From contig CALXHQ010000005.1 in NCBI GenBank assembly GCA_944388145.1, positions 1 to 64,000 of the forward strand: a stretch of DNA of 64,000 bases. Direction: 5' to 3'. The notes beneath the pieces are model-generated. The model was given only the letters and a program-made list of their open reading frames with translations, had not been told where the DNA came from and ran no database searches. Below are positions 6,822 to 33,328 of this stretch, piece by piece; positions within the stretch are counted from its first letter, which is position 1, and each line of letters opens with the position of its first letter. The stretch is from an uncultured Gemmiger sp. GTDB lineage: Bacteria > Bacillota > Clostridia > Oscillospirales > Ruminococcaceae. The position numbers were made by a program, and so were the translations under genes.

Positions 6822-7994
6822 TTACAGCCCCATCACCTCCCCCAGCTTCTCCTGCGCCTCCCGCTTCTTCTTGTCAAAGGCGTGGGCGTAAATGTCCAGC
6901 GTTGTACTGGCCTGGGAATGACCTAACAGGCTGGCTACCGTGCGGACATCCACGCCCTGGGCGATCAACAGGCTGGCATTTGTATGGCGAAGGCTGTGTA
7001 CATTCAGATTTTCCGGCAAGCCGTTCTGGCGCAAAATTTTCTTGAAGCGGAAGGTAAAGGTGGTGGGGACCATCGGGTCGCCGCTGGACTGGCGGAACAG
7101 GTAGTCATCTTCCTGTAATACCTCATCATTCTGTTTGCGATCCCACACGCATTGCTGCTTCCACGACTTCAACAATTTGGCCATCTCCTTGCTGACATAC
7201 ACCACCCGGTCACCGCTGGCAGTCTTGGGCGGTTTCACAAAGATGGGTTCGTGGCTCAATTTTACCACATTGCGCTGGATGTGGATTGACCGCTTCTTCC
7301 AGTTGATGTCCGACCACCGCAGCCCGCAGGCTTCACCGCGGCGCATCCCGGTGGCCAGAACAAGTTTGAAGTAGGTTTCGTATTTCAGGCTTTGCCCCTC
7401 CAGGGCGACAATCAAACGCTGCACCAGTTCCTCATCCGCCACCGGCCGCTCCTTCTTCTCGCTTTGCGGTTTATACATTTTCCAGGCCGGGTTATGGAGT
7501 AAGTATCCCTCCTCTACTGCATCGCTCAAGATACTGCACAGAGTGTTGTGGATGCCCTCCACGCTTTTCTCACTCAATGGTTTGCCGTCAGTCAGCTTGG
7601 GCGCCTTGCGCATTTCCTCGTAAAAATCCCGGACGACTTCTTTGCGCAGGTCGGTCAGTTTGTAGTGACCTAATACAGGTAAGATTCTCCGCACATCCTG
7701 CCGGTCGCGGGAGTAGGTGGTTTTCGCCAGCTTCTTGGGCGCGACATCCGCCAACCAGTGGTCAATGTACTTCGCCAGTGTAATGCTCTTGTTCACCGGC
7801 TCCGGGGTGTGGTGAACTTCCCGTTCAAACAACACTGCCTGTTCTTGCAGCCACTTCTCGCGCTGCTTCGGTTTCAATTCCACCGGCGGATGTACGGTTT
7901 TCTGTGCCGCCTTCAGCCGGTTGCCCTCGTAGTCGTACCCGCGAGAGACCACGATCAAATAACTGTTCTCTCCCCGCTTGCGAATGGATGCCAT
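6822..7994 (-). CDS. Tyrosine site-specific integrase
   Basis: A 390-residue tyrosine recombinase. The N-terminus (MASIRKRGENSYLIVVSRGY, about 1-50) is the arm-binding-like beta domain. A core-binding SAM-like domain follows at about 75-170, then the catalytic domain. Visible catalytic residues are Arg in TGMRRGEACGLRW, HSLRH at about 333-337, GHS near 358-360 and the nucleophile Tyr at about 369 in TLDIYAHAF. AAAGGA lies 10 bases before the ATG. Its 5' end faces a truncated oppD only 67 bases away, so it marks the end of an integrated element whose body runs leftward. No excisionase is recognised nearby. The family is that of ICE and prophage integrases. Confidence 0.95.
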   Translation of the reverse strand: MASIRKRGENSYLIVVSRGYDYEGNRLKAAQKTVHPPVELKPKQREKWLQEQAVLFEREVHHTPEPVNKSITLAKYIDHWLADVAPKKLAKTTYSRDRQDVRRILPVLGHYKLTDLRKEVVRDFYEEMRKAPKLTDGKPLSEKSVEGIHNTLCSILSDAVEEGYLLHNPAWKMYKPQSEKKERPVADEELVQRLIVALEGQSLKYETYFKLVLATGMRRGEACGLRWSDINWKKRSIHIQRNVVKLSHEPIFVKPPKTASGDRVVYVSKEMAKLLKSWKQQCVWDRKQNDEVLQEDDYLFRQSSGDPMVPTTFTFRFKKILRQNGLPENLNVHSLRHTNASLLIAQGVDVRTVASLLGHSQASTTLDIYAHAFDKKKREAQEKLGEVMGL

Positions 7995-8060
7995 ACTGCC
8001 ACGTCCTTTCTGATGTGATTTTCTTTGGTTTGCCTTGGATACTTTTTTGGCGTCTGGTCA

Positions 8061-8942
8061 TCATTCTTGACCATCTGCACCACAAAGCATATCCTTCAGG
8101 CTGGGTACTGTCCCCTTGATGGTAAACAGGCGGCTGTTGTCGTTGATCTTGGGGATGGAGGCCAGCAGCCCCTTGGTATATGGGTGCAGTGGGTTGGTGA
8201 ACAGATCGTAGCAACTGCCCTTCTCCACACTGTTGCCGCCGTACATCACCATGACGCGGTCGGCCATTTCAGCCACGACGCCCATGTCATGGGTGATAAA
8301 GATAACGGCGGTATCCAGGTCTTTCTTCAGGTCGTTGACCATCCGCAGTACCTGGGCCTGGATGGTCACGTCAAGCGCCGTGGTGGGCTCGTCGCAGATC
8401 AGCACCGCCGGTTTGCAGGACAGGGCCATAGCGATGATGACCCGCTGGCGCATACCTCCGGAAAGTTCGTGCGGATACTGTTTGGCTCGGACTTCAGGGT
8501 TGGGAATACCGACTTTGCGCAGCATTTCCACCGCCTGCTTTTCCGCCTCCTTGCGTTTCATTCCCTGGTGGCGCATGAACGGCTCGACCATCTGGCTCAT
8601 GATGGTCAGCGTCGGGTTCAACGAGGTCAGGGAATCCTGGAACACCATCGAGATCGCGTTGCCGCGGATCTTGCTCATCTCTTTGTTGCTCAGTTTTGTC
8701 AATTCCTCGCCCTTGAGTTTGACCGAGGAAGTCGGGGCAATTTCGCTGGTCTTTTCGTCCAGCAGCCGCATGATGGCCATGCTGGTAACACTCTTGCCGC
8801 AGCCACTCTCGCCCACAATGGCCAGCGTTTCGCCGGCATGCAGGTCAAAGTTGATACCGTTGACGGCTGTGAGCTTGCCAGCCTTGGTGTAGAAACTGAC
8901 GGTCAGGTTCTTAACTTCCAGGACGGTTTGTTTTTCAGACAT
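8061..8942 (-). CDS. Oligopeptide/dipeptide ABC transporter ATPase, OppD/DppD type (3' truncated)
   Basis: An ATPase of 293 residues energising the OppBC permeases. Walker A is GESGCGKS, the signature is LSGGMRQR and Walker B is AVLICDEPTTALD. The oligo_HPY region LHPYTKGLLASIPK follows. Family members are about 325-340 residues and end with a Cys-containing segment after VPSLKDMP. Here the homology ends at VPSLKDM and six foreign residues (LCGADGQE region) reach a stop 67 bases from the integrase start. GGGAGGAA precedes the ATG at 8942. The usual partner oppF is absent. Truncation by integration of the element is inferred; whether the shortened subunit works is unknown. Confidence 0.92.
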   Translation of the reverse strand: MSEKQTVLEVKNLTVSFYTKAGKLTAVNGINFDLHAGETLAIVGESGCGKSVTSMAIMRLLDEKTSEIAPTSSVKLKGEELTKLSNKEMSKIRGNAISMVFQDSLTSLNPTLTIMSQMVEPFMRHQGMKRKEAEKQAVEMLRKVGIPNPEVRAKQYPHELSGGMRQRVIIAMALSCKPAVLICDEPTTALDVTIQAQVLRMVNDLKKDLDTAVIFITHDMGVVAEMADRVMVMYGGNSVEKGSCYDLFTNPLHPYTKGLLASIPKINDNSRLFTIKGTVPSLKDMLCGADGQE

Positions 8943-8956
8943 AGACGCTTCCTCCC

Positions 8957-9829
8957 TTAGCCGACCTTGGTCTTGGGGTCCAGCGCGTCGCGCAGGCCGT
9001 CGCCAAACAGGTTGATGCTGATCAAAGTGATCAGGATGCACAGTCCCGGCGGGATCCACATCCAAGGCTGGGTTGCCACCACCGCCAGCGACTGTGCGGC
9101 GTTGAGCATATTGCCCCATGTGGATTGCGGAATCTGGATGCCCAGGCCAAGGAAGCTCAGCGCCGATTCGGACAGGATTGCGCTCGGCACGCCGAAGGTG
9201 AAAGCAACCAGCGCAGGGCTCAGTGCGTTCGGCAGAATGTACTGGATCATAATGGTGCTGTTTTTGGTGCCGATAGCCCGGGCCGCTTCAACATATTCCT
9301 TTTCACGGATGGACAGCACGCTGGAGTACAGCAGGCGGGTGAAGCTGGGCCAGCCGGTGATGCCGATGACCATAACAATGGTCCAGAAAGAAGGGCTGAA
9401 CACCGTAACCAGCACCAGGTTCAAGCACATGTTGGGGATGGAGTTGAAGATGTCGGCCAAGCGCATGATCACCACCTCAGCCGTGCCACGGTAATACCCG
9501 GCAATGATGCCCAGCGGGATGCCGATAATCGCCTGGACCAGCACGGCCAACAGGCCAATTCCCAGGCTGGTCTGCCCACCGTAAAGCAGGCGTGCCAACA
9601 GGTCGCGGCCGGTGGTGTCGGTTCCCAAAGGGAACTCAGCGCTCGGCGCCGCACTGAAGTAGGGGGTGATCTCATTGGGCTTGCTGCCCAGCAGGACCGG
9701 CAGCAGGAAGAGCAGAACGATCTCCAGCACCAGGACCACCAGGCCAACCACCGCCATTTTGTGGCGGGTGAAGCGCTCGATGGTATCACGCAGATACGCA
9801 TCTTTGACGATTGTTTTGCTTTGTTTCAT
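8957..9829 (-). CDS. Oligopeptide/dipeptide ABC transporter permease, OppC/DppC type
   Basis: An inner-membrane permease of 290 residues. It has the OppC N-terminal helix (RFTRHKMAVVGLVVLVLEIV), then the motif HPLGTD-like FPLGTDTTGRDLLARLLYGG, and then about five more helices. The EAA loop is EYVEAARAIGTKNSTIMIQYILPNAL, which contacts the ATPase. A GTG at 9838 would add three residues, but AAAGGGG spacing favours the ATG at 9829. It lies between oppB and oppD with 14-base gaps. It imports a substrate related to the catabolic enzymes upstream in the same operon. No substrate-binding protein is encoded in the visible operon. Confidence 0.93.
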   Translation of the reverse strand: MKQSKTIVKDAYLRDTIERFTRHKMAVVGLVVLVLEIVLLFLLPVLLGSKPNEITPYFSAAPSAEFPLGTDTTGRDLLARLLYGGQTSLGIGLLAVLVQAIIGIPLGIIAGYYRGTAEVVIMRLADIFNSIPNMCLNLVLVTVFSPSFWTIVMVIGITGWPSFTRLLYSSVLSIREKEYVEAARAIGTKNSTIMIQYILPNALSPALVAFTFGVPSAILSESALSFLGLGIQIPQSTWGNMLNAAQSLAVVATQPWMWIPPGLCILITLISINLFGDGLRDALDPKTKVG

Positions 9830-9843
9830 TCTTGACACCCCTT

Positions 9844-10803
9844 TCAGGCCTTATCCCCAATTCGGGGGTCAAGCAGACGGTAGAGAATGTCCAGCAACAC
9901 ATTGCCAACGAGGACAACGACTGAAATCAGCACCGTAATGCCCATGATGGTCGGGTAGTCGCGCCCCTGGATGGAACGGAGCATCAGGGTTCCCATTCCA
10001 GGCCAGGCAAAGATTTGTTCGATAACGATAGAGCCGCCAACCAGCGACGGCAACGCCAAGCCTGCTGATGTAACCACTGGCTGCAGGGCGTTACGCAGCA
10101 TGTGCTTGAACAGCACAGTTTTTTCACTCATGCCTTTGGCGCGCGCCGTTCGGATATAATCCTCCGAGAGGCATTCCACCGCACTGTTGCGCATCTGGCG
10201 GGTGAACACGCCGATGTTGGCCAGCACCATGGTTGCGCAGGGAAGCGCCATGTGGGCGACAAGCTGAGTAAAGGAACCGGTTGAGCCGGCATCATACATA
10301 CCGCTGGCGGGCAACCAGCCAAGCTGGATGCTGAACACATAGATCAGCAGCAGGGCCACAAAGAAGGTCGGCGCGCCGCGGCCGATGAAGGCAATAATGG
10401 TAGAACCATAGTCCCAGCCGGAATAGGCTTTGTAGCCCGCGATGGTCCCCAGCGGCACCGCGATGAGCAGTGCAATGACCAGAGACGAGATGCTCAACAG
10501 CAGGGTGGGGCCGATGCGGTCCATCAGCAGATCCCAAACCGGGCGGTACTGGCTGTAAGAGGTGCCAAAGTTGCCCTGCAGCATGTTACCCAGCCAGTAG
10601 AAATACTGGACAATGAGCGGTTGGTCCAGCCCCATGCGGTGTTCAATCTCGGCGATTTCCTCCGCCGAAAGGCCCGATCCCGGCTGCACCAGCATGTCCA
10701 GCGGGGTGCCGGGCATCAAGGAGGCCAGAATATAGGTGATGATGGTAATGCCAAAGAATGCCACGATGGCAGTCAATAGGCGCTTGACTATGTATCTGCC
10801 CAT
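9844..10803 (-). CDS. Oligopeptide/dipeptide ABC transporter permease, OppB/DppB type
   Basis: A 319-residue permease typical of the OppB/DppB branch. The first helix is MGRYIVKRLLTAIVAFFGIT. The periplasmic part has PGTPLDMLVQPG and the MGLDQPLIVQYFYWLGNMLQGNFGTS block, reaching a permease domain. The EAA loop is EDYIRTARAKGMSEKTVLFKHMLRNAL. Six transmembrane helices are expected. GGGGGA lies about 8 bases before the ATG. It is the first transporter gene after the Gfo/Idh/MocA dehydrogenase (50-base gap) and is probably on the same transcript. DppB-type systems also move nickel or oligosaccharides, so the cargo cannot be read from this gene. Confidence 0.93.
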   Translation of the reverse strand: MGRYIVKRLLTAIVAFFGITIITYILASLMPGTPLDMLVQPGSGLSAEEIAEIEHRMGLDQPLIVQYFYWLGNMLQGNFGTSYSQYRPVWDLLMDRIGPTLLLSISSLVIALLIAVPLGTIAGYKAYSGWDYGSTIIAFIGRGAPTFFVALLLIYVFSIQLGWLPASGMYDAGSTGSFTQLVAHMALPCATMVLANIGVFTRQMRNSAVECLSEDYIRTARAKGMSEKTVLFKHMLRNALQPVVTSAGLALPSLVGGSIVIEQIFAWPGMGTLMLRSIQGRDYPTIMGITVLISVVVLVGNVLLDILYRLLDPRIGDKA

Positions 10804-10853
10804 AGATTTTTCCCCCGTTCAGGCTGACGGCCTTACCTGCCAGCCTTTGGATT

Positions 10854-11873
10854 TTATTTCACCTCTTCAACAAGGACGCGGTGTTTTTCGTCGTTGGATT
10901 TGCGGATGGCCTCCATAGCCAGCAGGCAGGCTTGCCCGTCGTTGCCGTCACAGATCGGCGCCTTACCGCCAAGGTACGCAATAAAGTGGTGGGTGATCTG
11001 CTGCCAGGCGTCGGGGTCCTGCTGGACGATGTGTTCTTCGACGCTGCCGTCCGGCTTTTCCACCACAACGCCTGGGCCAGTGCACAAGCGCATGATACCT
11101 TCGGTACCGTAGATCGTGGTGCCACGCTCCGGCCGGCCGTAGTCGCACCAGCTGATCCAGATGGAGCCCTGGATTCCATTTTCCATCTCGGCCAGAATCA
11201 TCGCATGGTCAGCCGCCTTGATCGGGCTGCCGTCGGCATAGGTTTTGTCGATCGTCGGGGTTACAGCGCTGACCGCCTTGATGGGACTGTCGAAGAGATA
11301 ACGCACCAGGTCCACGCGGTGGCAGCCAACACTGAGCATGACGTCCCCCACACCCGCCAGATGTTTGTCATAGAAATCCGGGGTGGGGCCGCCGATGCTG
11401 GCATATTCCACACCTTTGTGGGCCAGCTCGGTGCGGAACGCGATGGGTTTTCCGATGACCCCCTCCCGCAGCAGTTTTTTGCCCAGCTGATGTTCGGCTG
11501 TCAGCCGCTGGGCGAAGGCTACCATCAGCCTGCGTCCGCTTTTATGCCAGGCATCCAGGATCTGTGCTCCCTCCTGCGGGGTCATGGCCAACGGCTTTTC
11601 ACACAGCACATCCTTGCCAGCTTCCAGCGCCGCAACCACATGGGTGCAGTGAAAGCGTTCCGGCGTACAGATGATGACGGCATCCACGGCCGGGTCTGTG
11701 ATCGCCTCGTTCACGTCATAGAAAGCCCTGGCTCCATATTGTTCAGCCAGTGCGTCGGCGTTGGCCCGTGTCTGGTCGCACACCGCGTACAGTACGGCAT
11801 CCGGGTTGACGGCCACCGCCGGGGCATGCCTGGTTTTTGCGATGGCGCCACAGCCAATGATCGCAATATTCAT
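10854..11873 (-). CDS. Gfo/Idh/MocA-family NAD(P)-dependent oxidoreductase
   Basis: A 339-residue dehydrogenase. The N-terminal Rossmann fold (1-120) has IAIIGCGAIAKTRHAPA and the family motif CEKPLAMT, with the catalytic Lys. The C-terminal Gfo/Idh/MocA alpha/beta domain includes VGDVMLSVGCHRVDLVRYLF, supplying the conserved Asp/His pair. Enzymes of this type oxidise a secondary hydroxyl on sugars, inositols or glycosides. The ATG at 11873 has GAGGTG 8 bases upstream; a GTG at 11882 would add three residues. It lies directly downstream of two TIM-barrel isomerase-like genes, a pairing seen in inositol, keto-sugar and C-glycoside breakdown. The exact substrate is not predictable. Confidence 0.92.
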   Translation of the reverse strand: MNIAIIGCGAIAKTRHAPAVAVNPDAVLYAVCDQTRANADALAEQYGARAFYDVNEAITDPAVDAVIICTPERFHCTHVVAALEAGKDVLCEKPLAMTPQEGAQILDAWHKSGRRLMVAFAQRLTAEHQLGKKLLREGVIGKPIAFRTELAHKGVEYASIGGPTPDFYDKHLAGVGDVMLSVGCHRVDLVRYLFDSPIKAVSAVTPTIDKTYADGSPIKAADHAMILAEMENGIQGSIWISWCDYGRPERGTTIYGTEGIMRLCTGPGVVVEKPDGSVEEHIVQQDPDAWQQITHHFIAYLGGKAPICDGNDGQACLLAMEAIRKSNDEKHRVLVEEVK

Positions 11874-11878
11874 GCTTT

Positions 11879-12646
11879 TCACCTCGCATCAATCAGCCGC
11901 CGCAGTGTCTGCAGGCTGATACGTGCATCCTCCAACACATCTTTTTTGTGCAGGTCCTGCTCCGCAACCACCCACTGGGCGCCAATTTCCACCGCCTTGG
12001 CGGCAATGGCTTCCACATCCACAAGGCCTTCGCCCACGGCGCAGAAGTCGATATCCATGTATCCGGGGCCGGTCTTGCCAACGTAGTCCTTAAAGTGGAC
12101 ATAGCGGATTCGATCCTTGTACCGATCCATGAGTGCGAGGGTATCGATCCCGGCGTAGGTGGTCCAGAAGGTATCGATCTCATACTCAAGGCCCGGCTCT
12201 TTTTCCAGGATTGCGTCCATCAGGCAGGCATGATCCCCGTAGGGCTGGAATTCAAAATCGTGGTTGTGCCAGGCAAGCTGCAGGCCCGCTTCGGCGCAGC
12301 GCTTTTTCCACTGGGGGATGGCGTCCAGGACTTTCCGGTAGTAGGCGTCGTTGCGGTCCTCATCCGGGATGTGGGGCAGTGCAAGGGTTTCCATTCCCAC
12401 CTGACGCGCATAGTCGATCTCCTCCTGCAGATTGTCAAAAAAGCGGTACATACGCGGGTGGGAGCTGAACACCCTGATGCCGATTTCCTCGGCTGCCGTC
12501 TTGAGTTCGGCGGCAGTCAAATCGTAGGGCAAGAACAGTTCCACCCCGTCGTAGCCCATCTCTTTGAGGGTGCCCATAACCTTGATCAGGTCCTGGCCGT
12601 TTTGGATGATCGTGTAAGCCGAAAACAGATTATAACCGTATTTCAT
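11879..12646 (-). CDS. Xylose isomerase-like TIM-barrel protein (sugar phosphate isomerase/epimerase family)
   Basis: A 255-residue AP-endonuclease-2-like TIM barrel (IolE, IolI and hydroxypyruvate isomerase superfamily). Metal-binding motifs are visible: a Glu in DGVELFLPYD, AWHNHDFEFQP, EYEIDTFWTTYAG, then RYVHFKDY and VAEQD near the end. Proteins of this family use a divalent metal to isomerise, epimerise or dehydrate keto-sugars, or act as lyases. An AGGAGG site precedes the ATG. It lies between the larger TIM-barrel paralogue (15-base gap) and the dehydrogenase gene. The arrangement suggests consecutive steps on the same oxidised sugar. Confidence 0.9.
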   Translation of the reverse strand: MKYGYNLFSAYTIIQNGQDLIKVMGTLKEMGYDGVELFLPYDLTAAELKTAAEEIGIRVFSSHPRMYRFFDNLQEEIDYARQVGMETLALPHIPDEDRNDAYYRKVLDAIPQWKKRCAEAGLQLAWHNHDFEFQPYGDHACLMDAILEKEPGLEYEIDTFWTTYAGIDTLALMDRYKDRIRYVHFKDYVGKTGPGYMDIDFCAVGEGLVDVEAIAAKAVEIGAQWVVAEQDLHKKDVLEDARISLQTLRRLIDAR

Positions 12647-12661
12647 CTTCGGGTCCTCCTT

Positions 12662-13624
12662 TCAGGCCCACCACATGGCGGCCGGCTGTTCCGAGATGAT
12701 GACTTGACGCAGGAAGGCGACCGCCTTTTCCAAGCCTTCCTTGATGGACATCAGGCTATCCTCGTGCTCAATGGCCAGCGTACCGTCAAAGCCACACATG
12801 CGCAGCGTGCTGACGATCTGCTTCCATTCGTCAGCGCTGTGGCCATAGCCCAGCGTGCGGAAGATCCAGCTGCGATGAAGCTCATCGGCGTAGGGTTTGG
12901 TGTCCAACACGCCGTACTTGCGGGCGTTGACCGGTTCCACATAGCAATCCTTGGCATGGAAATTATAGATGATCCCCTTGAGTTCGCGGATGGCTGTGGG
13001 AATATCGATACCCTGCCAATACAGATGGCTGGGGTCAAAATTGGCGCCGACCGCGTCGCCAACCGCCTCGTGGATGCGGAGCATCGTTTCAGGGTTGTAG
13101 ACACAGAAACCCGGGTGCATCTCAAACGCCGCTTTCACATGGTGGGCGTTGAGGAACTTGGCCATCTCCTGCCAGTAGGGGATCAATACCTTGTTCCACT
13201 GATAGTCCAGTATTTCCAGGAAATCTTCCGGCCAGGGGCAGGTGACCCAGTTGGGATGTTCAGACGCGGGGCAGTCGCCCGGGCAGCCGGAGAATGTATT
13301 GACAACGCCGACGCCGAGCTTTTCGGCCAGCAATACGGCATTGCGGAATTCATGGTCGGCTTTTTGGGCCACGGCCGGGTTCGGATGGACCGCGTTGCCA
13401 TGACAGCTAAGGGCACTGATGCTCAGATGGTTCTTTTCCAGAACCGCCTTGAACTCGGCCAGAGCCTGCGCATCATTCAACAATATTTCTGGGTCACAAT
13501 GGGCGTTGCCGGGGGAACCGCCGCAGCCGATCTCGACGGCTTCTACGCCAATGGAAGCCTGATAGGCCATAGCATCGGCGAAAGGCATACCGGAAAGCGG
13601 CACATTCAAAACACCAAGTTTCAT
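12662..13624 (-). CDS. Xylose isomerase-like TIM-barrel protein, larger paralogue
   Basis: A 320-residue TIM-barrel enzyme of the sugar phosphate isomerase/epimerase superfamily, longer than its neighbour. It shows VEAVEIGCGG, SALSCHGNAVHPNP, KAAFEMHPGF, GANFDPSHLYWQGID, YNFHAKDC and LAIEHEDS. Together these supply the expected His, Glu and Asp metal ligands at strand ends. GAGGTG precedes the ATG at 13624. Forms of this size with an internal HAKD motif often act with Gfo/Idh/MocA dehydrogenases in sugar or inositol breakdown. It is separated from the upstream UroD-family gene by about 200 bases that hold a strong hairpin, so expression of the downstream part may be adjusted there. Confidence 0.9.
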   Translation of the reverse strand: MKLGVLNVPLSGMPFADAMAYQASIGVEAVEIGCGGSPGNAHCDPEILLNDAQALAEFKAVLEKNHLSISALSCHGNAVHPNPAVAQKADHEFRNAVLLAEKLGVGVVNTFSGCPGDCPASEHPNWVTCPWPEDFLEILDYQWNKVLIPYWQEMAKFLNAHHVKAAFEMHPGFCVYNPETMLRIHEAVGDAVGANFDPSHLYWQGIDIPTAIRELKGIIYNFHAKDCYVEPVNARKYGVLDTKPYADELHRSWIFRTLGYGHSADEWKQIVSTLRMCGFDGTLAIEHEDSLMSIKEGLEKAVAFLRQVIISEQPAAMWWA

Positions 13625-13684
13625 AAAGACACCTCTTTTATGTTGTCACAATGGCGGCCTTTGGGCGTGTCAATTGCCGAACCT

Positions 13685-13738
13685 CCGCCTGCAACGCAAA
13701 CGGTGCAGGTTTGCTTGCACCGCTTGCGTTGCAGGCGG
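13685..13738. repeat. Long intergenic hairpin inside the catabolic operon
   Basis: The arms CCGCCTGCAACGCAA and TTGCGTTGCAGGCGG are perfect complements, and an inner pair, CGGTGCA/TGCACCG, extends the stem. It has the look of a REP-like or mRNA-stabilising hairpin. There is no T-run, so it is not a typical terminator. Confidence 0.7.
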
Positions 13739-13828
13739 CCCCGGCCGGGGCCACACTGCTGAGGAGAAAGAGCAAAAAGAACAATAGAATAAGGAAGGCG
13801 TTCTGCGTGATGGGCAAAAAGAAAGCAC

Positions 13829-14935
13829 TCAAGCTTTGGCGGCGCGCTCGGCTTCCACCTCGTCCAGGACCTGGCTGAGGACCGGGAAGCGATGCGGTTC
13901 GTAGCAACCGCAGCCGGGAGCAATAACCAGTTTGTCGCCCGCACCGGCGATGGCGGCATCCACACGGCTGCGCAGCGTCTTTTTAATCAGGCGGCGATCC
14001 GCGCCGGCAAAGTCGTTGCCGCCACCCGCACCGTTCATCACGCTGCGATCCAGCGGCAGGCGCAGATGATTGATGCCGCCGACAAGGACCTTGTCGGTCT
14101 TTTTGCGCAGTTCTGCCAAGCTGGGCATGGATTCCCATGTATCCGTATAGTTGAAGGCGGTGACGGGAAGGTCCAGGCACCATTCAATGGAGGCGGTGTC
14201 CTTTTCTTTAATGCCGCTGCCATTGCACAGGTGCGCCATGTTGAACCAGGTCTTATCCTTGATGGCGTTGACGATACGGGCGGTTCCATCAAATTCGTAC
14301 TTTTTGAACAGCTCGTACCCCATCTTCTGGTCCAGACCGTTCTGCATCCCGATAAAGAAACCGGCCGCGCCTGCATCCACATAGGCTTCCATCAGGTTGA
14401 CGAGAGTCTCTTCGATGACCTGGAGACCGTACTCCACCTCTTTGGTATCGTACTCAAACATTTTGATGAGCTTTTCCTGGTCAAAGAATCCAGCAACAAA
14501 CTCACCCGCCATGCTCACCGGACTGAACACGGTGGGCAGCACCGGCACATCGCCCTGATAGTGGTCGCAGACCCGCTTAACGGCTTCCACATTGCGCTGG
14601 AAGACCTCGCTGTCCTTCACCTTCAGCGGACGCAATGTCAGCCAGTCCTTAGCATGGTTGATGCGCCAGGTATCCACATTCAGCCAGGCCTGCATATCCG
14701 CATGCAGCGGAGTGGCGATTTTCTGGCCGAACGCCTCAGGAAAGTACATGCCCGAGAAATCAAATTTAATGAAATCCCACTGATAGGCATCCTCGTTGGC
14801 GATCATAGCGTAGGCCAGGTCGTAGGCATCCAGTTCTTCAAAATTGAGGTGCGGCCCCCAAAAAGCTGCACAGGGACGATCCAGGTGTTCGCCAGCCACA
14901 GCGGCCTTCAAGCGTTGTGTGTGCGTCATAGCCAT
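13829..14935 (-). CDS. Uroporphyrinogen decarboxylase (UroD/MtaA)-family protein
   Basis: A 368-residue protein with a UroD-type TIM barrel. It starts MAMTHTQRLKAAVAGEHLDR and has PVLPTVFSPVSMAGEF and DAGAAGFFIGMQNG. MAHLCNGSGI is the site where corrinoid methyltransferases of this family place a zinc-binding His/Cys. VLVGGINHLRLPL and APGCGCYEPH complete the pattern. It is not the heme enzyme: its neighbours are all sugar catabolism and transport genes. It could be a methyltransferase or an uncharacterised lyase; no corrinoid protein is seen nearby. The ATG at 14935 is preferred because GGAGG is 8 bases upstream, over one at 14950. It is the first gene of the minus-strand operon. Confidence 0.82.
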   Translation of the reverse strand: MAMTHTQRLKAAVAGEHLDRPCAAFWGPHLNFEELDAYDLAYAMIANEDAYQWDFIKFDFSGMYFPEAFGQKIATPLHADMQAWLNVDTWRINHAKDWLTLRPLKVKDSEVFQRNVEAVKRVCDHYQGDVPVLPTVFSPVSMAGEFVAGFFDQEKLIKMFEYDTKEVEYGLQVIEETLVNLMEAYVDAGAAGFFIGMQNGLDQKMGYELFKKYEFDGTARIVNAIKDKTWFNMAHLCNGSGIKEKDTASIEWCLDLPVTAFNYTDTWESMPSLAELRKKTDKVLVGGINHLRLPLDRSVMNGAGGGNDFAGADRRLIKKTLRSRVDAAIAGAGDKLVIAPGCGCYEPHRFPVLSQVLDEVEAERAAKA

Positions 14936-25912: not shown

Positions 25913-26515
25913 ATGCAGCATACGAAAAAAGACCCGCGGAAGCGGATTCTGACGATCCCCAATCTCTTATCCCTGTTCCGCATGATCCTGCTCCCCTTTT
26001 TTGTCTGGCTGTATGTGTTCCGGCAGCGCTATCTGGCAGCGGGGTGCGTGCTGATCCTTTCCGGCGTGACCGACATCGCGGACGGGGTGATTGCCCGCAA
26101 GTTCCACATGGTCAGCGACCTGGGCAAGGTGCTTGACCCGGTGGCGGACAAAGTGACGCAAGGGGTGGTTCTGCTCTGCCTGATGGTATGCCATCCCTGG
26201 ATGGCGGTGCCGCTGGCCCTCATGCTTTGCAAAGAACTTTGTATGGCCGTGACGGGCGGCCTGGTGATTTACCGCTCCGGGCAGGTGTACAGCGCGGCCT
26301 GGCATGGCAAGCTGGCCACGGTCTTTCTGGATGCCATGCTCGTGGCACACTTGGTTTGGCTTCAAATACCCGATTTTGTATCCATCCTTATGGCAGCGGC
26401 CGCCTCCGTTTTGATCCTGCTGTCGTTTGTGCTGTATCTGCGCCAGAATATTCGGCTTTTGCGCGGGACAGCAAAAGAAAATCGACGCTCGGAACAGATC
26501 GAGGAAAAAGTTTGA
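25913..26515 (+). CDS. CDP-alcohol phosphatidyltransferase (PgsA-like)
   Basis: A 200-residue membrane enzyme. It opens with the PgsA-type segment LTIPNLLSLFRMILLPFFVW. It carries the complete CDP-alcohol transferase signature in DIADGVIARKFHMVSDLGKV followed by LDPVADK, with all the conserved Asp residues. It would join CDP-diacylglycerol to glycerol-3-phosphate or a similar alcohol. An AAGGAAGGG site lies about 9 bases before the ATG at 25913. The gene begins 47 bases after the phosphoesterase. As the organism needs a housekeeping pgsA, this may be that gene or a paralogue; the sequence alone does not decide. Confidence 0.9.
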   Translation: MQHTKKDPRKRILTIPNLLSLFRMILLPFFVWLYVFRQRYLAAGCVLILSGVTDIADGVIARKFHMVSDLGKVLDPVADKVTQGVVLLCLMVCHPWMAVPLALMLCKELCMAVTGGLVIYRSGQVYSAAWHGKLATVFLDAMLVAHLVWLQIPDFVSILMAAAASVLILLSFVLYLRQNIRLLRGTAKENRRSEQIEEKV

Positions 26516-26555
26516 CCGCCATTTTGTCCTGATTTGGGAAAAGAGGAATACAGCT

Positions 26556-27419
26556 ATGGTTTGGATCGCTTTTGCCTGTGGGTCCGCCTTTTTCGCGGGC
26601 ATCACGGCGGTTTTGGCTAAAATCGGCATCGAGCATGTGAACTCCACCCTGGCCACCGCCCTGCGCACGGTGGTGGTGCTGGCATTCTCCTGGCTGATGG
26701 TGTTCGTGGTGGGTTCCCAGAACACCATCGGGCAGATCACCGGGGGCACGCTGTTGTTCCTGGTGCTGTCGGGGCTGTCCACCGGGGCGTCCTGGCTGTG
26801 TTACTTCAAGGCGCTGCAGCTGGGCGACGTGAACAAGGTAGCGCCCATCGACAAGTCCAGCACGGTGCTCTCCATCCTGCTGGCCTTTGTATTTCTGGGG
26901 GAGCCGGTCTCCCTGCCCCAGGTGCTGGGGGTGCTGGGCATCGGCACAGGCACCCTGCTGATGATTGCCAAAAAGCAGGGAACCCAGCCGGCGGCCCAAG
27001 GCAGGGGGTGGCTGGTCTACGCTTTCCTCTCGGCGCTGTTTGCCAGCCTGACCTCCATCTTTGGCAAGATCGGGGTGGAGAACGTGGAATCCAACCTGGG
27101 CACGGCGCTGCGCACGGTGGTGGTGCTGGTGATGGCCTGGGGCATGGTGTTCCTGACAGGGGCGCAGAAGGGCATCGGGCAGATCAGCCGCAAGAGCTGG
27201 CTGTTCCTGCTTTTGTCCGGCATTACCACAGGGTTGTCCTGGCTGTGCTATTACCGGGCGCTGCAGGACGGCCTGGCCAGCGTGGTGGTGCCCATCGACA
27301 AGCTGAGTATCCTGGTGACCATCCTGTTCTCCGGCCTGGTCCTTCACGAAAAGCTCACCACCAGGGCGGCGGTGGGCCTGGTGCTGATCCTGGCCGGTAC
27401 CGGGGCCATGCTGCTGTGA
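26556..27419 (+). CDS. EamA/DMT-family transporter
   Basis: A 287-residue membrane protein made of two clearly repeated EamA halves of about 140 residues. Each opens with a similar stretch (GSAFFAGITAVLAKIGIEHV and SALFASLTSIFGKIGVENV). Each contains ATALRTVVVL or GTALRTVVVL and later PIDKSSTVLSILLAF or PIDKLSILVTILFSG. Ten helices are expected. Members export small metabolites such as amino acids or act as permeases. GAGGA precedes the ATG at 26556. It is 40 bases after the PgsA-like gene and about 100 bases before the trp promoter, so it probably ends the envelope operon. Confidence 0.92.
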   Translation: MVWIAFACGSAFFAGITAVLAKIGIEHVNSTLATALRTVVVLAFSWLMVFVVGSQNTIGQITGGTLLFLVLSGLSTGASWLCYFKALQLGDVNKVAPIDKSSTVLSILLAFVFLGEPVSLPQVLGVLGIGTGTLLMIAKKQGTQPAAQGRGWLVYAFLSALFASLTSIFGKIGVENVESNLGTALRTVVVLVMAWGMVFLTGAQKGIGQISRKSWLFLLLSGITTGLSWLCYYRALQDGLASVVVPIDKLSILVTILFSGLVLHEKLTTRAAVGLVLILAGTGAMLL

Positions 27420-27554: not shown

Positions 27555-27854
27555 AATTCAATACGCTAAACCGTTGAAGCGGAGATAACGGCAGCCATGC
27601 CTTCACAGAGAGCCTGCGATGGTGGAAATCAGGCAAGAGACAAGCTGTCAAATGGACCGCTGAGGGTGCAGGGAACAGAGCGGGGTGACCCGTTCCCAGT
27701 ATTCTGCAACGTGCAGGCATACGTCAGTTGCCGGGGATATGTTGGTATCCTGTCAAGTGCATGGGGTCAAACCCGTGAAGTCAAGGTGGCACCGCGGATA
27801 AAGTGTTTTATTCGTCCTTAGCAGACCGTATAGGGTCTGCCGGGGGCGTTTTTT
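27555..27854 (+). promoter_or_regulatory. T-box leader, tryptophan-specific
   Basis: The leader has the T-box antiterminator sequence AAGGTGGCACCGCGG (27783-27797) and the stem I AGAGAGCCTG...GGTGGAAAT...CAGG element. The probable specifier loop is AAATGGACCGC, in which TGG (27653-27655) is the tryptophan codon followed by A. A terminator follows. Uncharged tRNA-Trp would pair with the TGG and the T-box bulge and allow transcription of the downstream trp genes. The specifier assignment is by position and agrees with the operon content. Confidence 0.92.
27813..27854 (+). terminator. T-box regulated terminator
   Basis: GCAGACC and GGTCTGC form the upper stem, and CGTCC with GGGCG (one G-U pair) form the lower stem, followed by TTTTTT. 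It is the alternative to the antiterminator that includes the T-box sequence. Confidence 0.85.
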
Positions 27855-27857
27855 ATT

Positions 27858-27902
27858 GCCGCCTTTCCCGGCAGGCTGTGCAACCCGCCGGTGAAAGGCG
27901 GC
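27858..27902. repeat. Inverted repeat between the T-box terminator and the first trp gene
   Basis: GCCGCCTTTC and GAAAGGCGGC are perfect complements, with an inner CGGC/GCCG pair. The hairpin occupies the place where the trpE ribosome site and start codon should be and contains only a poorly placed GTG at 27878. Confidence 0.7.
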
Positions 27903-28906
27903 TCGCCGATTTTACCACCCCCATCGAGGTGCTCAAGCAGCTCAAACGGGTTTCCCGCCACTGCTACCTGCTGGAATCCGCTGTGGCCGATGCCCGGTGG
28001 GGCCGCTACACCTTCCTGGGGTTTGACCCCCGGATGGAGATCACCTGCCGGGACGGCCGCATGCAGGTGGGGGACATCGCGCTGGAGACCGATGACCCGG
28101 CCGGCGTGCTGCGCGGGCTGCTCGCCCGCTACCGCAGCCCGCGGCTGCCCGGGCTGCCCACCTTCACCGGCGGGCTGGTGGGCTACTTTGCCTACGAGTA
28201 TTTCGGCTATGCCGAGCCCTCCGTGCGCGGCCGCACCGAGAACACCGAGCAGTTCCGGGACCTGGACCTGATGCTGTTTGACAAGGTTATCGCCTTCGAC
28301 CATGTGGCGCAGGTCATCCACCTCATCGTCAACATGCGGCTGTGCGAGGGCGAAGCCGGCTACAACAAAGCCGCGCTGGAGCTGGACTACCTGCGCCGGC
28401 TGCTGCTGGGCCCGCGGGCGGCGGAGCCGCCGGGGCGATTGACCGGCGATTTTACCCCGCTGCGCCCGCGCCGCCTGATCCTGTCCCCCGGCCCGGGCCG
28501 CCCGGAGGACGCCGGCGTCACGATGGAGGCCGCCAGAACGCTTGGCCCGCAGATCCCCACGCTGGGCGTCTGCCTGGGGCACCAGGCCATCTGCGCGGCG
28601 TTCGGCGCGGCGGTCATCCACGCCAAGCGGCTGATGCACGGCAAACAGTCGCAGGTCACGCTGGCCCCCGGCTGCCCGCTGTTCCGCGGCCCGCCGCCCG
28701 TCATCCCGGTGGCGCGGTACCATTCGCTGGCGGCGGACCCCGGTTCCCTGCCCGATTGCCTGGCCGTGACAGCCCGCGCCGAGGACGGCGAGGTCATGGC
28801 CGTGCAGCACAGAGCATACCCGATTTGTGGAGTGCAGTTTCACCCCGAATCCATCCTGACGCCGGACGGCGCCGCCATTCTGCAAAACTTCCTGCGCGAA
28901 GTGTGA
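27878..28906 (+). CDS. Hybrid of truncated TrpE and truncated TrpG (anthranilate synthase remnant)
   Basis: This frame joins two partial proteins. Up to about base 28460 it encodes the TrpE N-terminal domain: [60 protein letters not shown]. It then passes straight into TrpG at [14 protein letters not shown], with the nucleophile Cys in [14 protein letters not shown] and the HPES His-Glu pair. The whole chorismate-binding domain of TrpE (about 270-300 residues) and about 45 N-terminal residues of TrpG are missing, so anthranilate synthase activity is not expected. No good start exists: the GTG at 27878 is in frame but has no proper ribosome site, and the open frame reaches back into the T-box. 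Deletion is the simplest explanation. Confidence 0.85.
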
Positions 28907-28920
28907 AAGGAGCACCCGCT

Positions 28921-29961
28921 ATGATCAAAGAAGCCATCGTCAAAATTGTGGACAAACAGGACCTGACCTACGACGAAGCCTACGCCGTCATGAACGAGAT
29001 CATGAGCGGCGAGACCACCCCCACCCAGAACGCGGCCTTCCTGGCGGCGCTGTCCACCAAGAGCGCCCGGGCCGAGACCACCGATGAGATCGCGGGCTGC
29101 GCGGCCGCCATACGGGCCCACGCCACCCAGGTGGACACCGGCATGGAGGTGTTCGAGATCGTGGGCACCGGCGGCGACAACGCCAACAGCTTCAACATTT
29201 CCACCACCGCGGCGCTGGTGGCGGCGGCCGGCGGCGTCAAGGTGGCCAAGCACGGCAACCGGGCGGCCTCCTCCCAGTGCGGCACGGCCGACTGCCTCGA
29301 GGCGCTGGGCGTCAACATCAATCAAAGCCCGGCCCGCTGCGTTGAACTGCTGAACGAGGTCGGCATCTGCTTCTTCTTCGCCCAGAAATACCACGCCTCG
29401 ATGAAGTACGTCGGGGCGATCCGCAAGGAGCTGGGCTTCCGCACCGTGTTCAACATTCTGGGCCCGCTGACCAACCCTGGCAAACCGTCGGTCCAGCTTT
29501 TGGGCGTCTACGACGAGTATCTGGTCGAGCCGCTGGCCCAGGTGCTCATCAGCCTCGGGGTGCGCCGGGGCATGGTGGTCTACGGGCAGGACAAGCTGGA
29601 CGAGATCTCGCTCTGCGCGCCCACCAAGATCTGCGAAATCAAGGACGGCTGGTTCAAATCCCACACCATCCGGCCGGAGGACTTCGGCCTGGCCCGCTGC
29701 GCCCGGGAAGACCTTCGCGGCGGCACCCCGGCCGAGAACGCGGCCATCACCCGGGCGGTGCTGGGCGGGGAGGCCGGCCCCCGGCGGGACGCCGTGCTGC
29801 TCAACGCGGGCGCCTCGCTCTACCTCTGCGGCAAGGCGGAATCCCTCGGCGCGGGGGTGGCGCGGGCCGCCGCCCTCATCGACGCGGGCAAGGCGCTGGC
29901 GACCCTCGAAGCCTTCATCAAGGTCAGCAACCGCCCGGACCTCACGGAGGTGCAGCCATGA
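28921..29961 (+). CDS. trpD: Anthranilate phosphoribosyltransferase
   Basis: A 346-residue TrpD. It converts anthranilate and PRPP to phosphoribosyl-anthranilate, the second step of tryptophan synthesis. Family motifs are all visible: the N-terminal helical part ([20 protein letters not shown]), the PRPP loop [54 protein letters not shown] and [20 protein letters not shown] lies 8 bases before the ATG, which is 14 bases after the hybrid TrpE/TrpG gene. The ATGA overlap with trpC shows coupling. The gene looks fully intact even though the enzyme that should supply its substrate is broken. Confidence 0.97.
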
Positions 29962-30743
29962 CCATCCTCGAGCAGTTGGCCGGTCACGCCTGGGCCCGGG
30001 TGGCGCTGGCCAAGGCGGAAAAACCGCTGGCGGAACTCCGGCGCGAGGCCCTCGCAATGCCCCGCGGGGAGTTCGCCTTTGAAAAGGCGCTGGCAAAACC
30101 CGGGCTCTCCTTTATCTGCGAGTGCAAGCGGGCCTCGCCCTCGAGGGGGCTGATCGCGCCCGACTTCCCGTATCTGGACATCGCAAAGGAATACGAGGCC
30201 GCCGGGGCCGACGCGATCTCGGTGCTGACCGAGCCGAAATGGTTCCTCGGCAGCGACCGGTATCTCGCCGAGATCGCCGCGGCGGTGCAAATCCCCTGCC
30301 TGCGCAAGGACTTTACGGTGGACGCGTATATGATCTACGAGGCCAAACGGCTGGGCGCGTCGGCAGTGCTGCTGATCGTCTCGCTGCTAGAGGCGCCGCA
30401 GTTGGCCGACTACCTGGCCCTCTGCGATGAGTTGGGGCTGTCGGCACTGGTGGAAGCCCACGACGCCGCGGAGATCAAAACCGCCCTGCGGGCCGGGGCG
30501 CGGGTGATCGGGGTTAACAACCGCAATTTGCAGGACTTTACGGTGGACACGTCCAACGCCGCTCGGCTGCGGCGGCTGGTACCGCGGGACGTGCTGTTTG
30601 TGGCCGAAAGCGGGGTGGCAACTGCCGCCGATGCGGCCGCCGCGCGGGCCATTGGGGCGGACGCCGTGCTGGTGGGCGAAGCGCTGATGCGCGCGCCGGA
30701 CAAGCGCGCCAAACTGGCCGAGCTGCGGGGGTGTGCGGAATGA
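29958..30743 (+). CDS. trpC: Indole-3-glycerol phosphate synthase
   Basis: A 261-residue TIM barrel converting carboxyphenylamino-deoxyribulose phosphate to indole-3-glycerol phosphate. Family marks are [20 protein letters not shown] with the catalytic Lys, [57 protein letters not shown] and [12 protein letters not shown]. All expected catalytic Glu, Lys and Asn residues are present. The ATG overlaps the trpD stop as ATGA and is preceded by GGAGG. It runs into trpF by another ATGA overlap. Confidence 0.97.
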
Positions 30744-31357
30744 CCAAAATCAAGCTGTGCGGCCTGCGCACCCCGGCGGACATCCGTGCCGCCAACGCGC
30801 TGCGGCCGGAATATATCGGCTTTGTGCTGGCCCCCGGCAGCCGCCGGGCCGTCACCCCCGTGCAGGCCGCGGCGCTGAAAGCCCGACTTGCACCCGGCAT
30901 CCGGACGGTGGGGGTCTTTGTGGACGCGCCGCCCGCCGAAGTCGCCGCGCTGCTGAGCAACGGCACCCTGGACATCGCCCAGCTGCATGGGCGGGAGGAC
31001 GAAGCCTACCTGACCCGGCTGCGCGCGCTGACCGATAAACCTCTCTGGCAGGCGGTACGGCTCACCGGGCCCGGCGCGATGCAGGCACTGGAAACTGCCC
31101 GGCGCAGCACGGCGGATCTCGTCCTGCTGGACGCCGGCGCGGGCGACGGCGCCGCGTTTGATTGGGGGCTGGCCGGGCGGCTGGGGCGGCCCTACTTGCT
31201 GGCCGGCGGGCTGACGCCCGGCAATGTGGCCGGGGCCATCCGCCGCCTGCACCCCTTTGGGGTGGATGTGAGTTCCGGCATTGAGACAAACGGCGTCAAG
31301 GACGCCGAAAAAATGGCGGCCTTTGTGGCCGCCGTGCGAAAGGAGGAGGCAGTATGA
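30740..31357 (+). CDS. trpF: Phosphoribosylanthranilate isomerase
   Basis: A 205-residue TIM barrel with the TrpF pattern. The catalytic Cys is in [12 protein letters not shown], followed by [67 protein letters not shown] and [17 protein letters not shown]. The general acid Asp (VLLDAG) is conserved. The ATG at 30740 is within an ATGA overlap with trpC; a GTG three codons upstream is less likely. It carries out the Amadori rearrangement between TrpD and TrpC and overlaps trpB by ATGA. Confidence 0.97.
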
Positions 31358-32544
31358 CCAACCCGAACGGACGCTTTGGCGTGCATGGAGGGCAGTATAT
31401 CCCCGAAACGCTGATGAACGCCGTGATCGAACTGGAACAGGCCTACAATTTTTATAAAAACGACCCGGATTTCAACCGGGAGCTGACCGCCCTGTTCAAT
31501 GACTACGCGGGCCGCCCCTCGCGGCTGTACTATGCCGCCAAGATGACGGCTTCCTTAGGCGGGGCAAAGATCTACCTCAAGCGGGAGGATCTGAACCACA
31601 CCGGCGCCCACAAGATCAACAATGTGCTGGGCCAGGCGCTACTGGCCAAAAAGATGGGCAAAACCCGCCTGATCGCCGAGACCGGCGCCGGGCAGCACGG
31701 CGTGGCCACCGCCACCGCGGCGGCACTGCTGGGCATGGAGTGCGTCGTCTTTATGGGGGAGGAAGACACCCGCCGCCAGGCGCTGAATGTGTACAAGATG
31801 CGGCTGCTGGGAGCCGCCGTCGTGCCGGTCACCACCGGTACCGCCACCCTCAAGGACGCGGTGTCCGAGGCAATGCGGGAGTGGACATCCCGCATCGCGG
31901 ACACCCACTACTGCCTCGGCTCGGTCATGGGGCCGCACCCGTTCCCTACCATCGTGCGGGACTTCCAGGCGGTCATCTCCAGGGAGATCAAGGCTCAGCT
32001 GATGGAAAAGGAAGGTCGCCTGCCCGATGCGGTCATCGCCTGTGTGGGCGGCGGCTCCAACGCCATCGGCAGCTTCTACCACTTTATCGGGAACCCCGGC
32101 GTGCGGCTCATCGGCTGCGAGGCCGCCGGCCGCGGCGTGAATACCCGGGAGACCGCCGCCACCATCGCCACCGGAAAACTGGGCATCTTCCACGGCATGA
32201 AGTCCTATTTCTGCCAGGACGAGTACGGCCAGATTGCGCCGGTCTACTCGATCTCGGCGGGGCTGGACTACCCCGGCGTCGGCCCCGAACACGCCTACCT
32301 GCACGACATCGGCCGGGCCGAGTATGTGCCCGTCACCGACGATGAGGCCGTGGACGCCTTCGAGTATCTCTCCCGCACCGAGGGCATCATCCCGGCCATC
32401 GAGTCGGCCCACGCGGTGGCCTATGCCTGCAAGCTCGCCCCGACGATGACCAAAGACCGGATCATCGTCATCACGATCTCGGGCCGCGGCGACAAGGACT
32501 GCGCCGCCATCGCCCGTTACAGAGGGGAGGATCTCCATGAGTAA
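31354..32544 (+). CDS. trpB: Tryptophan synthase beta chain
   Basis: A 396-residue PLP enzyme that joins indole and serine. It has the N-terminal segment [16 protein letters not shown] and the PLP lysine in [52 protein letters not shown] (phosphate loop), the [16 protein letters not shown] hinge and SGRGDKD follow. The length and motifs match TrpB1 (not the TrpB2 type), which works with the alpha subunit encoded next. AGGAGG precedes the ATG, which overlaps the trpF stop. It can also use free indole, so this step could still be useful if indole is supplied from outside. Confidence 0.98.
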
Positions 32545-33328
32545 GATCGCATCGGCCTTCCAAAATGGCAAGGCGTTCATCCCGTTTCTGACCTGCGGCG
32601 ACCCGGACCTCGCCACCACCGCGGCGGCGGTGCGGGCGGCTGCGGCGGCCGGGGCTGATCTCATCGAGCTGGGCATCCCCTTTTCCGACCCCACCGCCGA
32701 GGGCCCGGTCATTCAGGCGGCCAGCCTGCGGGCGCTGCAGGGCGGCGTCACCACCGACAAAATTTTTGCCCTCGTGCGCGACCTGCGCCGGGATGTGACG
32801 GTGCCGCTGGTGTTCATGACCTACGCCAACGTCGTCTTTTCCTACGGCACCGAGCGGTTTGTCAAAAACTGCCGGGATGTAGGCATCGACGGCCTGATCC
32901 TGCCCGATGTCCCCTATGAGGAGAAGGAGGACTTTTTGCCCGCCTGCCGGGCATACGGCGTTGACCTGATTTCGCTCATCGCACCGACTTCTGAAAACCG
33001 CATTGCCATGATCGCCAGGGAGGCTGAGGGGTTCCTCTATCTCGTCTCCAGCCTCGGCGTCACCGGCGTGCGCAGCGAGATCACCACCGACCTCGGCGCG
33101 ATCGTGGAGGTGGTGCGGCAAAACACAAACATCCCCTGCGCCATCGGCTTCGGCATCTCGACGCCGGAACAGGCAAGGGAAATGGGCGCGCTGGCCGACG
33201 GCGTCATCGTCGGCTCGGCCATCGTGCGGCTGGTCGAACAGTACGGCCAAGCCGCCCCGCCCCATGTAGGGGACTATGTCCGCCGGATGAAGGCGGCGCT
33301 GGGCGAACTGCCGGTGAACCCGCAGTGA
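32537..33328 (+). CDS. trpA: Tryptophan synthase alpha chain
   Basis: A 263-residue TIM barrel that releases indole from indole-3-glycerol phosphate. The catalytic Glu is in [20 protein letters not shown] and the Asp in [68 protein letters not shown] and [10 protein letters not shown] complete the pattern. GGGAGG lies 7 bases before the ATG, and the gene overlaps the end of trpB by 8 bases. It is the last gene of the operon and is followed by a perfect 21-base inverted repeat. Confidence 0.97.

Follow-up and report, generated by a model that had tools for sequence, protein, structure and literature searches.

A probable deletion scar at the head of a T-box-controlled tryptophan operon in an uncultured Gemmiger species

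Introduction

Gut genomes that encode TrpA, TrpB, TrpC, TrpD and TrpF but no TrpEG have been described as variant A3; the available part of that account counts 38 such genomes and proposes anthranilate salvage for them (PMC9026213). The genome studied here, G000, is alike in that these five proteins are present and no anthranilate synthase is found in an assembly that is 98.8% complete. A requirement for tryptophan or anthranilate is predicted for variant A3 in the same portion of the source (PMC9026213) and would be predicted for G000. The two differ in that the lost genes of G000 persist as a scar behind a T-box leader, whereas the available text on variant A3 describes no scar (PMC9026213).

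The closest intact counterparts are the T-box-controlled trpEGDCFBA operons of L067, L100 and G158. These share with G000 the kind of leader and the tested gene order, with roughly 55–92% protein identity depending on the gene, but retain full trpE and trpG, which G000 does not.

Natural TrpE–TrpG fusion proteins also exist, for example in rhizobia, and place TrpE and TrpG in one frame as does the hybrid of G000. In such proteins the chorismate-binding domain is present and TrpG is complete; the hybrid has neither the domain nor a full TrpG. A literature search of titles and the opening parts of abstracts gave no TrpE::TrpG deletion hybrid among the matches listed. The loss of TrpEG is a known kind of outcome, while the scars themselves appear new with respect to the parts of the literature covered. 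Our analysis points to a young deletion scar in a T-box trpEGDCFBA operon that recently lost anthranilate synthase, rather than to a working chimera, and we hold this reading with considerable confidence.

The hybrid frame and its joint

The window is the whole stretch of DNA that was analysed, 64,000 nucleotides of G000, and all of its features given below lie on its forward strand. The hybrid is a single open frame of 367 codons at 27803–28906, a putative TrpE::TrpG deletion scar whose nominal GTG start is placed inside the T-box. The TrpE-derived part, at 27908–28462, runs from a DFTTP motif (about residue 31 of relatives) to the sequence FTPL (about residue 216); its assignment is sure from the motif onwards and possibly extends about ten codons further 5'. 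The TrpG-derived part, at 28457–28903, begins at about residue 41 and overlaps the TrpE part at the PL of the joint.

A Pfam scan places Anth_synt_I_N (PF04715) at hybrid residues 38–173 with 97.6 bits, which identifies a TrpE N-terminal domain with its 5' end cut. The GATase match, at residues 221–366, corresponds to positions 42–189 of a 190-position profile and is not a complete class-I GATase. Chorismate_bind (PF00425), the TrpE catalytic domain, is absent from the hybrid protein. The sequences LGVCLGHQ and QFHPES, which we take to be the GATase motifs carrying the catalytic Cys, His and Glu, both lie inside the frame, with the retained Cys codon at 28571–28573. The preliminary description had proposed that a T-box-controlled trp operon opens here with an in-frame TrpE–TrpG deletion hybrid, without the chorismate-binding domain and with Cys, His and Glu of the GATase kept; the Pfam domains, these motifs and an Rfam match agree with it. 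Its account of the ends of the two parts is borne out for the joint, with about 41 residues of TrpG missing where about 45 had been claimed, but it had overlooked that the 5' end of TrpE is lost as well.

Compared with L067, TrpE is fused after FTPL (about residue 215) to about residue 41 of TrpG, and the stretch missing at the joint is about 941 bp by subtraction of positions. Since trpE and trpG of L067 sit in different frames, the chance that a join stays in frame is one in three. One deletion of this size would have brought the two parts together in frame by chance. A CGCTG-like stretch shared at the junction is a possible microhomology, which the relatives are too distant to decide.

The start region of trpE

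The second lesion lies at the other end of the TrpE remnant. In 25 of 25 aligned relatives (the best 25 having a TrpE frame longer than 440 aa) an ATG is found about 30 codons 5' of an (S/A)DFTTP-like motif, and the window has no ATG there. The motif is at residue 30 in all four relatives measured. A Shine–Dalgarno-like site and an ATG follow the T-box terminator in each of the eight printed leader stretches of relatives; in G000 a second hairpin passes straight into TrpE sequence.

No in-frame ATG is present in the start region of G000, where the in-frame GTGs are those at 27803, 27878 and 27929. A search of 27797–27912 for Shine–Dalgarno-like cores returned just AAGG at 27895, within a hairpin arm, and no in-frame ATG, GTG or TTG follows it before 27929. 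The trpE of G000 lacks its ribosome-binding site, its start codon and the first ~16–29 codons, the range reflecting the choice of joint alignment. It is because of this loss that the nominal GTG falls inside the T-box, and the GTG at 27803 does not appear plausible as a start codon. Comparison with the relatives shows two lesions, not one, at the head of the operon.

Judged against intact relatives, both the start and the catalytic parts are lost, as in a pseudogene or deletion scar. Another deletion would have taken the ribosome-binding site, the start codon and the first codons of trpE, and little or no hybrid protein is likely to be made. The leftover frame would then be a scar, probably hardly translated and unable to produce anthranilate.

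The T-box leader and the downstream genes

A T-box leader of the tryptophan type is located at 27565–27822 (RF00230, 84.1 bits, E = 8.1e-19). A first Rfam scan gave no T-box match because 84.1 bits is below the gathering score of 93. The T-box alignment places a UGG (Trp) specifier, positioned from the sequence, at 27653–27655, and the match and the specifier together identify the type although the bit score is below gathering. Over the aligned part the leader DNA is 67–82% identical to the leaders of other loci, the best full-length matches being L100 (81.7%) and L069 (81.4%). The pattern AAGGTGGNANCGCG, which covers just part of all T-boxes, has one exact match in the whole genome, in the leader described here. 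An EamA-type transporter at 26427–27419, on the same strand, is directly 5' of the T-box.

The minimum free-energy fold gives a terminator hairpin at 27814–27847 and, 3' of the T-box, the second hairpin at 27858–27902 (−33.6 kcal/mol in G000). G093, from another genus, also has a second hairpin (−21.9 kcal/mol), which is followed by a T-run, a Shine–Dalgarno sequence and an ATG; those three elements are missing in G000. A second hairpin is not visible by eye in all eight printed leader stretches of relatives.

The remaining genes of the operon are trpD (28921–29961), trpC (29958–30743, encoding IGPS), trpF (30740–31357, starting at an ATG inside the listed open frame), trpB (31354–32544) and trpA (32537–33328). 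Their frames overlap or are closely spaced, and Pfam domains are matched over nearly the whole length of each. The trpD frame is open throughout and has its own Shine–Dalgarno sequence, AAAGGAG; the assignments of trpD and trpA are further supported by conserved sites, and in trpB none of 232 near-invariant sites is changed. These observations uphold the earlier claim that the five genes are intact and overlapping, and no damage is visible. The T-box and trpD-C-F-B-A look intact, and a T-box should still permit expression of trpDCFBA when charged tRNA-Trp is scarce. On the reading that we favour, these genes would remain behind the Trp T-box, with trpD relying on a ribosome-binding site of its own.

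Genome content and the supply of anthranilate

The assembly of G000 comprises 2.73 Mb in 29 contigs. At E <= 0.001 PF00425 has no match in this 98.8% complete assembly, while 14 of 14 control genomes match. So far as the assembly is complete, this family therefore has no other member in G000, whether trpE, pabB or isochorismate synthase. A second anthranilate synthase elsewhere, one of the explanations offered in the preliminary description together with a call for a whole-genome search for trpE or pabB, is to that extent ruled out.

The same result bears on whether the locus is an artefact, a collapsed or chimeric contig standing in for a real genome with full trpE and trpG. The assembly is a draft, as are those of the related eroded cases. 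Against this, a TrpE catalytic domain is found nowhere else in the assembly, and two separate lesions within one locus speak against misassembly. Similar eroded operons occur in G093, G660, G165 and L070, and repeated cases with several lesions make misassembly unlikely as an explanation.

Chorismate synthase is present in G000, as in all 35 genomes of the genus, and the organism would be expected to make chorismate and no anthranilate. Kynurenine was considered as a source of anthranilate through the organism's own kynureninase; TIGR01814 has no match in the genome, with a weak control in which 10 of 14 genomes gave a signal, just two of them above the cut-off. As kynureninase was not found in the genome, anthranilate would need an outside source. 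We infer that G000 is an anthranilate auxotroph and a tryptophan auxotroph.

Conserved sites and the age of the probable scar

Each gene was compared, leaving one sequence out at a time, with 65–113 others. Loci were gathered by similarity to the hybrid, sequences with less than 85% coverage were dropped, and L011, L126, L134, L124, L127, L128 and L129 were excluded from the reference sets. At sites at least 95% conserved in relatives, none of 26 is changed in the TrpE part and none of 25 in the TrpG part. With a threshold of 80% the changes number 3 of 67 and 1 of 62, respectively, values that do not exceed the median among the other sequences. With other reference sets, too, no near-invariant site was changed, out of 30 and 50 sites in the two parts. 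The downstream genes trpD, trpC, trpF, trpB and trpA do not leave the range seen among the other sequences; at the 80% threshold trpF (5 of 68 changed) is somewhat above the median, a level reached by 21 of the 65 other sequences.

Most of the other sequences score zero as well, so that the power of the test is small. If the remnant evolves freely, 0 of 51 changed near-invariant sites corresponds to an amino-acid change since the deletion of at most about 6% (95% level). The lack of decay beyond that of intact genes at such sites suggests that the scar is young, and the deletion has plausibly occurred within the species. The accumulated decay of a pseudogene is not seen at these 51 sites, a comparison of low power that youth would explain and constraint would fit equally well. 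The frame of 367 open codons and its untouched near-invariant residues count to some degree against a scar, in that they would equally be expected under selection on a product.

Eroded operons in the family and order

In the family sample trpC is above the cut-off in 54 of 146 genomes and PF00425 in 52 of 146. Five of the 54 trpC-bearing genomes have no PF00425 match, namely G000, G093, G097, G084 and G036. PF00425 is unmatched in 94 of the 146 genomes, some of them incomplete, and these yielded no TrpE or PabB of this type.

A survey for hybrids covered 394 genomes of the order, 116 of which have TrpE-N, and 396 of the family, 154 of which do. Complete short TrpE frames are confined, among the matches listed, to G000, G093 and G660. 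The other candidates are of several kinds. The short frames of G224, G584, G764 and G654 end at contig ends in the fetched stretches, and that of G009 reaches a contig end by its coordinates. In G506 a frame change in TrpE-N is followed closely by the contig end and the catalytic part is present. In G419 (L129:1817–3300), and likewise in L102, trpE is split between two frames that are separated by a gap, again with the catalytic part present; either sequencing error or recent decay could account for this. The frame of G023 is 393 aa long, and this genome also has a PF00425 match.

The hybrid of G093 (L011:1441–2271) is an in-frame TrpE::TrpG join of 276 aa, which has a ribosome-binding site and an ATG and which we judge to be independent of that in G000. 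Its TrpG part begins after the catalytic Cys (the GATase profile is matched from position 96 only), and its trpD to trpA are free of stops. By eye, the joint may have arisen by deletion between two stretches that resemble each other, GY-AKA of TrpE and AK-L of TrpG. No TrpE part was found in six sampled congeners (77–98% complete), which leaves G093 the only one of seven to carry it.

In G660 (L145:5083–8676) trpE has an out-of-frame deletion with a T-box ahead, TrpG(1–111) is joined in frame to TrpF(173–202) with the removal of trpD and trpC, and trpB and trpA are open. In L070 (positions 7941–13917), which comes from a metagenome bin labelled Lachnotalea, an internal deletion puts trpE out of frame, trpG is interrupted by a stop codon at residue 83, and trpD to trpA contain no stops. 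These two out-of-frame deletions rule out in-frame joints as a rule.

The hybrids could alternatively be functional chimeras that are translated and retained; the product would be a Trp-binding domain ending in a glutaminase-like tail, or it would act as a spacer that sustains expression of trpD. Two independent examples with open frames and conserved residues, the good ribosome-binding site and ATG of G093 and the GATase Cys kept in G000 would suit such a role. If frame were a matter of indifference, the chance that both hybrids are in frame would be 1 in 9, which also weighs against a scar. The start region is, however, absent from the hybrid of G000, and that of G093 is without the Cys half of the GATase, which argues against a glutaminase common to both. 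Given the same two points, the earlier suggestion, in which a free GATase releasing ammonia would be joined to a Trp-binding domain, is not supported. The TrpE part is not seen in the six congeners of G093, and the out-of-frame trpE deletions of L070 and G660 indicate that the frame is not generally needed. A functional chimera is, in our judgement, highly improbable. Only a little better is the standing of a broader proposal, in which open-frame TrpE::TrpG deletions would be a repeated, selected route to an anthranilate- or indole-salvage T-box operon and the remnant would serve these Clostridia as a translated spacer or a Trp-binding leader protein; we regard it as very unlikely. A scar remains our preferred reading.

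Operons that lack trpE and trpG and are re-ordered occur in G097 (L130; B-A-D-C-F), G084 (L131; D-C-B-A) and G036 (L132; F-B-A-D-C). Their trpD and trpC are just ~36–45% identical to those of G000, and two of the three have T-boxes. They look like settled, predicted anthranilate-dependent operons.

Relatives within the genus

trpC was detected in three of 35 genomes of the genus, and in two of the 19 with a completeness of 90% or more and a contamination of 5% or less; it was not found in the other 32 of the 35, several of which are incomplete. G158 (L125) has all seven trp genes, each in one frame without stops. G165 (L124:3963–8324) has trpDCFBA without a T-box, trpE or trpG. A gene on the opposite strand adjoins the start of its trpD, which is interrupted by a stop codon at residue 119; its trpF has a frame change. 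The genus presents an erosion series, with an intact operon in G158, a scar in G000 and a deleted head with decaying genes in G165. The preliminary description had advised a comparison with the operons of relatives. Full trpE and trpG are indeed present in G158 and in L067, and taken alone this does not refute a deletion in G000.

A tree of TrpB and TrpA was built for G000 and 67 loci, after loci with less than 93% coverage, such as that of G036, had been dropped. G000 groups with L067, L100 and G165 in a clade of four (support 0.92), with L067 as its sister, and G158 ranks 40th of 67 by distance from G000. Since G000 and G165 have related operons, to which that of G158 is not close, transfer besides loss, and not solely inheritance within the genus, may have shaped the distribution.

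What is left of the operon might be a stable system for salvage of anthranilate or indole, maintained by selection, and not a step towards complete loss. The genes trpD to trpA and the T-box appear as conserved as in intact operons, and the E/G-less operons of G097, G084 and G036 persist in genomes with no PF00425 match, two of them with T-boxes. Salvage is also what the available account proposes for the 38 gut genomes of variant A3 (PMC9026213). The scar is nevertheless too young to tell selection from lack of time, trpC is not found in most of the genus, decay is under way in trpD and trpF of G165, whose operon is a relative, and with no kynureninase found in G000 the anthranilate would have to be external. 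We regard stable salvage as possible, and as somewhat doubtful. With regard to the scar itself, we suggest a deletion within a portion of the T-box operon that the cell could do without; tryptophan auxotrophy seems common in this lineage. trpDCFBA would either continue to serve the salvage of anthranilate or indole from outside or be in the course of being lost, as across the genus.

Biological implications

With the first step lost and the later steps apparently intact, the cell most likely requires tryptophan or a precursor of it from its neighbours. Annotation may label the hybrid frame as trpE, trpG or a TrpEG fusion despite its having no ability to make anthranilate. The locus is a biosynthetic operon caught losing its first step, at an early stage. 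Within the genus and family several stages coexist, from intact operons through scarred ones and one with a deleted head and decaying genes to genomes in which none is found, so that the order and manner in which tryptophan auxotrophy arises in such Clostridia may be studied.
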